Shown here piece after piece: positions 45,611-62,610 of a stretch of 64,000 nucleotides of DNA. Numbering within the stretch: the first letter of the stretch is position 1; the number at the start of each line of letters is the position of its first letter. The notes under the pieces are model-generated. The model did no database searches. It was not told where the DNA came from and saw nothing but the letters and a program-made list of their open reading frames with translations. This DNA comes from Desulforamulus hydrothermalis Lam5 = DSM 18033 (lineage in GTDB: Bacteria > Bacillota > Desulfotomaculia > Desulfotomaculales > Desulfotomaculaceae). Location of the stretch: assembly GCF_000315365.1 (NCBI RefSeq), contig NZ_CAOS01000003.1, positions 1 to 64,000 on the forward strand, given 5' to 3'. The position numbers and the translations under genes are program-made.

Positions 45611-46999
45611 ATGAACCCCGTATCGGAAATAACTAAACTCCGCCGAGATCTCTTTACCAAAATTGCCCGCTGGGCACTTCATCATCCTTTGGATGCTCCC
45701 TTTGAGATGGATATATCAGCTATGGTTAAAGAAATGATTCCTGACGGACCCGCTCGTTACCGGTGCTGTATTCATAAAGAAAGAGCCATTGTTGAAGAAC
45801 GGATAAAAATCGCCGTGGGTTTAACTCCGGTTAATCACCCGGTTACAGTAATCTCAGAGGCATGCAACGGCTGCTCATTAAATAAATATGTGGTAACTGA
45901 CGCCTGTCAAAATTGTGTGGCTCACCCCTGCCGCAACAGTTGCCCCAAAAAAGCAATTTCTGTGATCCAAAACCGTGCCTTTATTGATCAGGTTTCTTGT
46001 GTCGAGTGCGGTAAGTGTGCCAAAGCCTGTCCCTATAATGCCATTATAGAAATTAACCGTCCTTGTGAACGGGCTTGTGCTATTGGTGCCATTAAGGTTG
46101 ACGATTCCCGCAAAGCAATTATTGATAATGAATTATGCGTTTCCTGCGGTTTATGTGTAACTGTTTGTCCCTTTGGCGCCATTACCGACCTGTCACAAAT
46201 GCTGGATGTTATTGTTTCCCTGCGGGTTAAAGAACAGCCCCATGTGGCAGTTATTGCACCGGCCATTGCAGGCCAATTCGGCCCAAAGGTTTCACCGGAG
46301 CAAATCAAAACCGCTTTGCAACAACTGGGCTTTGACGATGTGGTTGAAGCAGCCCTGGGAGCGGACATTGTATCTAAGCTGGAAGCTCAGGAAATTATGG
46401 AACATGCCGCTCAAACCAATGTTATGACCAACTCCTGCTGCCCGGCCTTTGCACAAGCTGTACGCAAAAAACTGCCGGAACTGCAGGACAAAATTTCCAC
46501 CACCTTATCTCCCATGCGGGTTGCCGGTCAGTTAGTTAAGAATAAGTATGACGGAAAAGTAACAACGGTTTTTATAGGACCTTGCATAGCTAAAAAAGCA
46601 GAAGCCAACCAAGGAGATGAAATAGACCTGGTGTTAACCTTTGAGGAACTGTCAGCTATTTTATCTGCAAAGGAAATTGATCTAGCCGGCCTTCCTCCCA
46701 CCGCAATGACCGGTGTAACTCCCAACGGCAGGCTATTTGCAAGGGCCGGCGGCGTGAGCACCGCTGTTCGTAAGCATTTAGGCGATATTTCGTTAAACGT
46801 GATGCAGGTTCAGGGTCTGGGACAATGCCTTGCTGCTTTAAAAACTGCCGCTAAGCAAACCAATGACAGCTTTACCTTTATTGAGTGCATGGCCTGCGAA
46901 GGCGGCTGCGTGGGCGGCCCCGGAACCATGGTTACACCCGCTGTAGGTACCAGAGCAGTGGAAAAGCATGCCGGCGAAGGCATTATCTTACCTAAATAA
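45611..46999 (+). CDS. Monomeric [FeFe] hydrogenase (group B type)
   Basis: 462 residues. N-terminal domain, then cysteine clusters for Fe-S centres (ACNGCSL, CQNCVAHPCRNSCP, CVECGKCAKACPYNAI, CVSCGLCVTVCPFGAI) leading to the H-cluster domain: TNSCCPAF, GPCIAKKAEA and CMACEGGCVGGPG supply the cluster cysteines. The short chain and TNSCCPAF/GPCIAKK variants fit group B hydrogenases, whose role (ferredoxin-linked proton reduction or sensing) is little studied. ATG 45611 follows GGGAGGAG. Single gene; maturation genes (hydEFG) are not in the window. A hairpin follows its stop. Confidence 0.9.
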   Translation: MNPVSEITKLRRDLFTKIARWALHHPLDAPFEMDISAMVKEMIPDGPARYRCCIHKERAIVEERIKIAVGLTPVNHPVTVISEACNGCSLNKYVVTDACQNCVAHPCRNSCPKKAISVIQNRAFIDQVSCVECGKCAKACPYNAIIEINRPCERACAIGAIKVDDSRKAIIDNELCVSCGLCVTVCPFGAITDLSQMLDVIVSLRVKEQPHVAVIAPAIAGQFGPKVSPEQIKTALQQLGFDDVVEAALGADIVSKLEAQEIMEHAAQTNVMTNSCCPAFAQAVRKKLPELQDKISTTLSPMRVAGQLVKNKYDGKVTTVFIGPCIAKKAEANQGDEIDLVLTFEELSAILSAKEIDLAGLPPTAMTGVTPNGRLFARAGGVSTAVRKHLGDISLNVMQVQGLGQCLAALKTAAKQTNDSFTFIECMACEGGCVGGPGTMVTPAVGTRAVEKHAGEGIILPK

Positions 47000-47000
47000 C

Positions 47001-47020
47001 AAACCGGCCCCAGGCCGGTT
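47001..47020 (+). terminator. Terminator-like hairpin, left of the nested-hairpin element
   Basis: AAACCGGCC / GGCCGGTTT directly after the hydrogenase stop. An almost identical hairpin lies on the other side of the element at 47289-47307. Confidence 0.7.
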
Positions 47021-47021
47021 T

Positions 47022-47283
47022 CAGAGTGTCAACAAACATTATCGGTGGTTTATGATCCCCTTTGGCTCCGGTCTACGCACCGACAGCACTATGATTCGCT
47101 ACGGTCGCCATTGGGGTCGCCTCAACCGGGCCATCCTGGCCCGGTTCGGCTGGCGCCCACGTCCTGTGGGCGCCACCCCAATGGCTCCTTTCGCTCATCA
47201 AGTGCTGTTGCCGGTGCTTCGACAAGTCGCCGACAGGGGATCATAAAACCACCTCACTTTGTTTTACAACCTTTGTCTACAGT
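47022..47283 (+). repeat. Nested-hairpin element, full copy 1
   Basis: About 262 bases, matching 62322-62580 with roughly a dozen substitutions and three single-base gaps. Structure seen by pairing: an outer stem (GGTGGTTTATGATCCCC at 47044-47060 with GGGGATCATAAAACCACC at 47236-47253, one bulge); a middle pairing of GCACCGACAGCACT with the right arm; a 10-bp stem CCATTGGGGT (47108-47117) / ACCCCAATGG (47175-47184); inside it two perfect hairpins, AACCGGGCCA/TGGCCCGGTT (47124-47146) and TGGCGCCCAC/GTGGGCGCCA (47151-47175). Spurious reading frames cross it. Confidence 0.85.
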
Positions 47284-47288
47284 TTGAG

Positions 47289-47307
47289 ACCGGCCCCAGG
47301 CCGGTTT
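47289..47307 (+). terminator. Terminator-like hairpin, right of the nested-hairpin element
   Basis: ACCGGCC / GGCCGGT, the same sequence as at 47001-47020, followed by TTAACTG. Confidence 0.6.
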
Positions 47308-62243: not shown

Positions 62244-62299
62244 ACAAATCCCCGGGACTGTCGGCAAAATTATTACATGACCGTGTTACTAAACCTTTG

Positions 62300-62320
62300 C
62301 CTGGTCAGGTGATGACCAGG
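62300..62320 (+). terminator. Terminator-like hairpin, left of nested-hairpin element copy 2
   Basis: CCTGGTCA / TGACCAGG perfect 8-bp arms, loop GGTGA, no T run. The same arms return on the right side at 62585-62602. Confidence 0.6.
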
Positions 62321-62321
62321 A

Positions 62322-62580
62322 CAGAGTGTCGACAAACATTAGCGGTGGTTTATGATCCCCTTTGGCTCCGGTCTACGCACCGACAGCACTATGATTCGCT
62401 CCGGTCGCCCTTGGGGTCGCCTCAAACGGGCCATCCTGGCCCGGTTCGGCTGGCGCCCACGTCCTGTGGCGCCCCCCAATGGCTCCTTTCGCTCATCAAG
62501 TGCTGTGACCGGTGCTTCGACAAGTCGCCGGCAGGGGACCATAAAACCACCTTACTTTGTTTTAACCCTTTGTCTTCAGT
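62322..62580 (+). repeat. Nested-hairpin element, full copy 2
   Basis: About 259 bases, near-identical to copy 1 and in the same orientation. It keeps the outer inverted repeat (GGTGGTTTATGATCCCC / GGGGACCATAAAACCACC) and both inner hairpins, with one pairing lost in each (AAACGGGCCA and GTGGCGCC) and one change in the 10-bp stem, so the copies have diverged mainly in the stems. Spurious reading frames span it. Confidence 0.85.
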
Positions 62581-62584
62581 CTGG

Positions 62585-62610
62585 CCTGGTCAGGTGACCA
62601 GGAATTTTTC
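62585..62610 (+). terminator. Terminator-like hairpin, right of element copy 2
   Basis: CCTGGTCA / TGACCAGG with only GG as loop, followed by AATTTTTC. It differs from the left copy only by three bases of loop. Confidence 0.65.

Follow-up and report, generated by a model that had tools for sequence, protein, structure and literature searches.

Introduction

The insertion sequences IS1272 and TnSha1, both members of the IS1182 family, insert at stem-loops, which are often terminators and share no sequence consensus (PMC5678879, PMC4923244). Upon insertion, the hairpin is deleted or replaced (in PMC4923244, part of it is deleted), and no target duplication is formed (PMC5678879, PMC4923244). 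A passage of PMC4923244 also describes some IS1182 members as targeting palindromes. The model of Wan et al. (PMC5678879) includes a pathway b, drawn as a hypothetical alternative to the hairpin replacement observed for IS1272. A review of bacterial miniature inverted-repeat transposable elements (MITEs) does not mention IS1182 (PMC10969869). Our literature search, with ISfinder and the main IS review outside its scope, returned only the IS1272 papers and no description of terminator-hairpin duplication by IS1182 elements or MITEs.

The RNA family TwoAYGGAY (RF01731) was described by Weinberg et al. in 2010, and the table in that report rates it as a probable biological RNA that is unlikely to be cis-regulatory (PMC2864571). 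Its type in Rfam is Cis-reg. CsrA binding has been proposed for RF01731, which is the basis of the CsrA-sponge idea (PMC4333381). Here we analyse a 64,000-nucleotide stretch of the Desulforamulus hydrothermalis Lam5 genome (the window) together with the whole host genome and its relatives, and assign a mobile-element context to this RNA family catalogued in 2010.

Results

Two copies of a dispersed element in the window

The window contains two copies of the element in the same orientation, copy 1 (265 bp) and copy 2 (262 bp), which are 94% identical. This observation agrees with a preliminary description made from the letters of the window, which had reported two near-identical copies; the starts given there (47022 and 62322) are retained, and both ends lie 3 bp further right (47286 and 62583). 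The element is dispersed in the host genome (2.69 Mb in 16 contigs, 99.94% complete) in about 65 near-identical copies: a 22-nt core pattern gives 66 matches, versus 0 for the reversed-pattern control, and BLAST gives 68 distinct hits, some of them incomplete. The ends were defined across 59 two-ended host copies. The features of the two sites are as follows.

45611-46999, plus strand: iron hydrogenase-type gene, with copy 1 inserted on its 3' side
47001-47021, no strand: left target hairpin copy at the copy 1 site (AAACCGGCCCCAGGCCGGTTT), the terminator-like stem-loop of gene 45611-46999, flush with the element
47022-47286, plus strand: element copy 1 (MITE, 265 bp)
47022-47036, plus strand: left terminal inverted repeat of copy 1, CAGAGTGTCAACAAA
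47070-47224, minus strand: RF01731 TwoAYGGAY core of copy 1 with two GGA-loop hairpins (cmscan 58.8 bits, gathering threshold 43)
47272-47286, minus strand: right terminal inverted repeat of copy 1, CAAACTGTAGACAAA as read on the minus strand
47287-47307, no strand: right target hairpin copy at the copy 1 site (AGACCGGCCCCAGGCCGGTTT), followed by a T-rich stretch
62299-62321, no strand: left target hairpin copy at the copy 2 site (GCCTGGTCAGGTGATGACCAGGA); congeners have a single hairpin and no element
62322-62583, plus strand: element copy 2 (262 bp)
62322-62336, plus strand: left terminal inverted repeat of copy 2, CAGAGTGTCGACAAA
62370-62522, minus strand: RF01731 TwoAYGGAY core of copy 2 (cmscan 51.8 bits, gathering threshold 43)
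62569-62583, minus strand: right terminal inverted repeat of copy 2, CAGACTGAAGACAAA on the minus strand
62584-62603, no strand: right target hairpin copy at the copy 2 site (GCCTGGTCAGGTGACCAGGA), followed by ATTTTTCTTTTTT

The element itself extends from CAGAGTGTCGACAAA to TTTGTCTACAGTCTG over about 265 bp and is bounded by imperfect 15-bp terminal inverted repeats (CAGASTGTNGACAAA). It is non-coding, the open reading frames that overlap it being merely mechanical. The nested stems of the preliminary description are real, as copy 1 folds at -191 kcal/mol versus -111 ± 5 in shuffled sequences (z -15), and copy 2 reaches a z of -8.7. In copy 1, perfect 13-nt arms pair 47049-47061 with 47235-47247, and a 16-nt hairpin is also present. 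The outermost pair of copy 1 spans 36 nt with 78% complementarity, and belongs in part to the flanking hairpin outside the element.

Whole hairpins are duplicated on both sides of the element

At 54 of the 59 two-ended host copies, the flank duplication exceeds the 99th percentile of mismatched-flank controls; at 52 of the 59 it is flush with the element ends. Each duplication comprises an entire palindrome, a terminator-like stem-loop, whose sequence differs from site to site and agrees between the two sides of a site. For example, AAACGCCACCAGCCGAAGCGGTGGCGTTT stands on the left and on the right of copy L017, and the left hairpin of copy 1 is a 19-nt exact direct repeat of 47289-47307. Nearly all host copies (55/59) are found 3' of a gene, in many cases 20-50 bp past the stop codon, and the other four lie between divergent genes. 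An A-rich or T-rich tract adjoins the outside of the hairpin at 50 of 52 copies. Most of the target hairpins thus look like intrinsic terminators. The 8 nt after the right hairpin contain on average 4.4 T, versus 2 at the element start.

The host genome also contains shorter derivatives of 42-146 bp with the same ends (L087:8242-8295, L093, L100, L104, L105, L090, L085, L092, L095 and L035), most of which are flanked by duplicated hairpins. Several of them have a common junction at CGACAG direct repeats, which suggests that slippage collapsed the palindrome, or that the derivatives form a second size class that is itself mobile. We do not take the core-less derivatives as proof that the core is dispensable for transposition, because the common junction, 114-116 bp at the CGACAG direct repeats, could result from slippage in place. 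A segmental duplication at L094:2296-3200 (contig C10) comprises one hairpin-flanked derivative together with its terminator, with 35-nt exact stretches about 0.7 kb apart.

Single hairpins and shared sites in relatives

At the site orthologous to copy 2 of the window, several congeners carry one terminator-like hairpin and no element, for example CCCCTTGGTTTTATAACCGAGGGG in G008. Similarly, the L017 site of D. putei (G001) has no element and a single hairpin whose stem is nearly identical. Since a single hairpin without element is found in congeners at both orthologous loci, the insertion is the derived state.

In two species one and the same terminator holds an insertion: in the host a 57-bp derivative (L100:1600-1656), in D. 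putei a full element in opposite orientation (L122). This reflects either a hotspot with independent insertions or an inversion. In the metagenome-assembled genome (MAG) G007, many copies have a left hairpin that differs from the right one. Among its loci L223-L242 the hairpins recur between copies (the left one of L230 equals the right one of L234, and the right one of L232 equals the left one of L239). This recurrence suggests recombination between copies or misassembly of the MAG at repeats.

IS1182-family insertion sequences share the ends of the element

A search of the relatives for DUF772 transposases yields insertion sequences of 1.5-1.6 kb within the same genus. Their ends are identical to those of the element in G008 (CAGACTGAAGACAAA / CAGAGTGTCGACAAA) and in G001 (CAGACTGT[AC]GACAAA), and related to them in G004 and G005. 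The insertion sequences are located between duplicated hairpins in G004, in G008 and, on split contigs, in G005, and a hairpin adjoins their ends in G001 and G019. The partner transposases contain DUF772 and DDE_Tnp_1_6 domains and score 446, 456 and 384 bits against NF033551 (IS1182; cutoff 270), which by sequence places them in the IS1182 family. A comparison by sequence found no relative of the transposase among solved structures. An IS1182-family copy at L139 in G004 is bordered on either side by one and the same hairpin arm in nested or repeated copies, which points to a terminator that was inserted into repeatedly or was duplicated.

A protein search of the host genome and searches of its contig ends and small contigs found no transposase with matching ends; the contig ends and small contigs gave only weak similarity of 20-25%, from L115/L116. 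These two PF05598 transposases of the host were considered as partners and rejected, as the ends of their elements do not match. The solo terminal inverted repeats at L099 and L114 were likewise rejected as IS ends, because unrelated genes border them. One of the two rejected elements, L115:434-2050 (contig C6), is an insertion sequence that encodes a DUF772 transposase, has terminal repeats of 24 bp and lies inside a CRISPR array of the host (at least 19 repeats matched). As no host transposase has these ends, mobilisation in trans is deduced from the congeners; the host copies may be orphaned or fossil, or the transposase gene may lie in an assembly gap.

Taken together, the repeated element is a non-autonomous transposon of the MITE type: it is short and non-coding, has terminal inverted repeats, target duplications and empty sites, and is matched by an autonomous partner family.

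The RF01731 core and a possible RNA function

Both cores align over the full RF01731 model (positions 1-168) and present two AYGGAY-type apical loops on the minus strand, ACAGGACGU and CCAGGAUGG. Across nine genomes, double compensatory changes are found in 29 of 37 predicted pairs, and loop 1 keeps ACAGGA/GU unchanged in all 23 sequences compared from these 9 genomes. Among 51 host copies, CAGGA of loop 1 is invariant, whereas just 3 of 63 pairs show double changes, as a recent burst would predict. Conservation of the structure is thus seen across evolution rather than in each single copy. We also considered whether the GGA loops are under purifying selection within the host; singletons are just a little less frequent in the core than in the ends, which is not decisive.

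RF01731 elements in G003, G005, G009 and G019 have other ends and lack flanking hairpins, indicating that the RNA family is wider, or the core older, than the MITE. Those of G019 (L252-L262) have the ends CGGGTGTGC..GCACACCCG, and their terminal arms change jointly between copies (CGGGCGCGC/GCGCGCCCG, GCGAATGCGC/GCGCATTCGC).

RF01731 could primarily be a regulatory RNA gene or cis-regulatory family, for instance a CsrA sponge with two GGA loops, which is dispersed because many of its copies are of use, with mobility being secondary. The filing of RF01731 in the Rfam clan of CsrA-binding sRNAs (CL00106), the strong covariation between genomes, the retained GGA of loop 1 and the csrA gene of the host are in line with this reading. 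Moreover, RF01731 is present in 9 of 16 csrA-positive and 1 of 5 csrA-negative genomes, the lone exception being an incomplete MAG, although this association is not significant at such a sample size. However, the copies are transposon insertions without significant orientation bias (22 versus 14 in tandem; 32 versus 23 for the nearest facing gene), so that close to half of them would be read on the strand without GGA, which speaks against a systematic role in neighbouring mRNAs. In addition, the second GGA loop is lost in G007. We consider a primarily regulatory family unlikely. The CsrA-sponge idea as such is compatible with the GGA loops and with the presence of csrA in nearly all RF01731-bearing genomes. 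The core fold, conserved by compensatory change between species, may have an RNA role such as CsrA binding, or act only as a DNA structure.

Among the options that the preliminary description had offered, the non-autonomous mobile element is borne out by the terminal repeats, the target duplications, the empty sites and the autonomous partner family. Its structured RNA family is partly right as well, since the core is RF01731 and covaries across genomes. The statement that no described family has this layout has to be withdrawn, as TwoAYGGAY was already named. The preliminary description had also listed findings that would speak against it, and in the host genome double changes are limited to the 3/63 pairs given above, the family has a name and an IS1182-family element has matching ends. 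It is the duplicated hairpins in the flanks, absent from that description, that identify the element as a transposon.

Duplications outside the genus and their register

A scan with the transposase alignment, using one genome per species, gave 80 loci, mostly in Bacillota. The whole hairpin is duplicated at all nine copies on the complete chromosome of Neobacillus drentensis and at all four copies of Romboutsia timonensis. In N. drentensis, the automatic palindrome score fails where the terminal inverted repeat and the flank share a boundary base, which was resolved in the 80-locus comparison. Overall, at least 37 of the 80 loci have a duplicated hairpin, with many of the remaining loci cut by contig ends. 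The loci with a duplicated hairpin come from Lachnospiraceae, Oscillospiraceae, Selenomonadales, Peribacillus, Metabacillus, Saccharibacillus and others. No duplication is seen at the Thermoanaerobacter wiegelii copies.

An ordinary transposase with a long fixed stagger and a preference for AT-flanked or terminator-like sites could also leave palindromic duplications, which would then reflect site preference rather than structure-guided cutting. Other IS families make long duplications of about 20-27 bp, and the host duplications cluster around 21-25 nt. Nevertheless, lengths span 12-31 nt in the host (mean 22.8, sd 3.5) and 20-32 nt in 33 exact duplications elsewhere, while the duplication edges remain symmetric about the hairpin axis, at all lengths in the host. 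Complementarity of the outer 6 nt in the host is 0.75 in the end-to-end register, drops to 0.41 one base off and is 0.23-0.30 at two or more bases off. In the exact duplications elsewhere, the outer 7 nt reach 0.91 in register versus 0.27-0.34 when shifted (0.34 one base off). Duplication length also correlates with palindrome arm length (r 0.67), a relation partly built in by the way the arm is measured. With variable lengths and edges fixed to the palindrome axis, a constant stagger does not fit, and we regard this explanation as improbable. That the hairpins, present at nearly every copy, are terminal parts of a composite element rather than target is scarcely credible, since the hairpin differs at every site yet is equal on both sides of one site, and element-free congeners have one hairpin at the two tested sites.

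Proposed mechanism of insertion

With terminal repeats shared between MITE and insertion sequence, whole-hairpin duplications and empty sites observed, the element is very probably a MITE on which an IS1182-family DDE transposase acts in trans, choosing its targets by structure. From the sequences we infer cruciform recognition, the joining chemistry and the trans action on the MITE. The transposase would recognise a cruciform extruded at an intrinsic terminator, and both hairpins of the cruciform would have their 5' foot joined to a 3' end of the transposon. Repair of the gaps would then copy the full hairpin onto both sides. The proposed route is pathway b of PMC5678879. Against this reading stand the missing host transposase, the T. 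wiegelii copies without duplication, the unequal left and right hairpins in G007 and the RF01731 elements with other ends.

As a consequence, the far hairpin would retain its own T-tract and the near hairpin would lose it, from either direction, so that the terminator survives. The near hairpin now precedes CAGAGTGT in place of its T-tract. With the near T-tract lost and the second terminator complete, transcripts should enter the element and stop at the far hairpin. Insertion is therefore predicted to be near-neutral, with the element read as a 3' untranslated extension.

Discussion

Our analysis provides abundant natural evidence for whole-hairpin target duplication, which previously was only a drawn hypothetical pathway. 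If the proposed mechanism is true, shape-based targeting together with terminator preservation would explain how a genome of 2.7 Mb came to hold about 65 copies at little cost. Whether IS1182 transposases recognise cruciforms becomes directly testable with defined hairpin targets. The results also hold a warning that Rfam matches and covariation may stem from transposons, and copy number and flanks should be checked before a regulator is named.

A more far-reaching proposal combines both parts of the element. A clade of IS1182-family transposases would read extruded terminator cruciforms and join at their 5' feet, each insertion leaving a complete second terminator, and a functional TwoAYGGAY RNA would ride on the MITE, be made as part of the 3' untranslated RNA, with one weakened terminator copy before it and one intact copy after it, and titrate CsrA from tens of loci at once. 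This combination as a whole appears doubtful to us.

Palindrome targeting by the IS1182 family and RF01731 itself were already known; added here are the reinterpretation of RF01731 as the interior of an IS1182-type MITE and a well-supported, unusual target-duplication signature. The core resembles the published TwoAYGGAY family (PMC2864571) in its match to all 168 model positions and in its two GGA-loop hairpins on a long stem. In contrast to the accounts of this motif in PMC2864571 and in the Rfam entry, in which mobility is not noted, the core here lies inside a MITE whose ends are of IS1182 type, and the whole unit exceeds the model by about 100 nt.

Compared with other mobile elements, the transposase family and the stem-loop targets are common to the present system and IS1272/TnSha1, whereas here the hairpin is kept twice (52/59 copies in the host, 9/9 in N. 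drentensis and 4/4 in R. timonensis). Like the bacterial MITEs reviewed in PMC10969869, the element is short and non-coding, folds into hairpins, reaches high copy number and has terminal inverted repeats, target duplications and ends shared with an insertion sequence; it differs from them in targeting a whole terminator hairpin, in a variable duplication of 12-31 bp and in having a named RNA family as its interior. In Haloquadratum, the PATEs and SMRs (PMC3119063) are also high-copy and transposase-free, and SMR-A elements insert in palindromes. However, PATEs lack terminal inverted repeats and neither group has target duplications, whereas the element described here has both.
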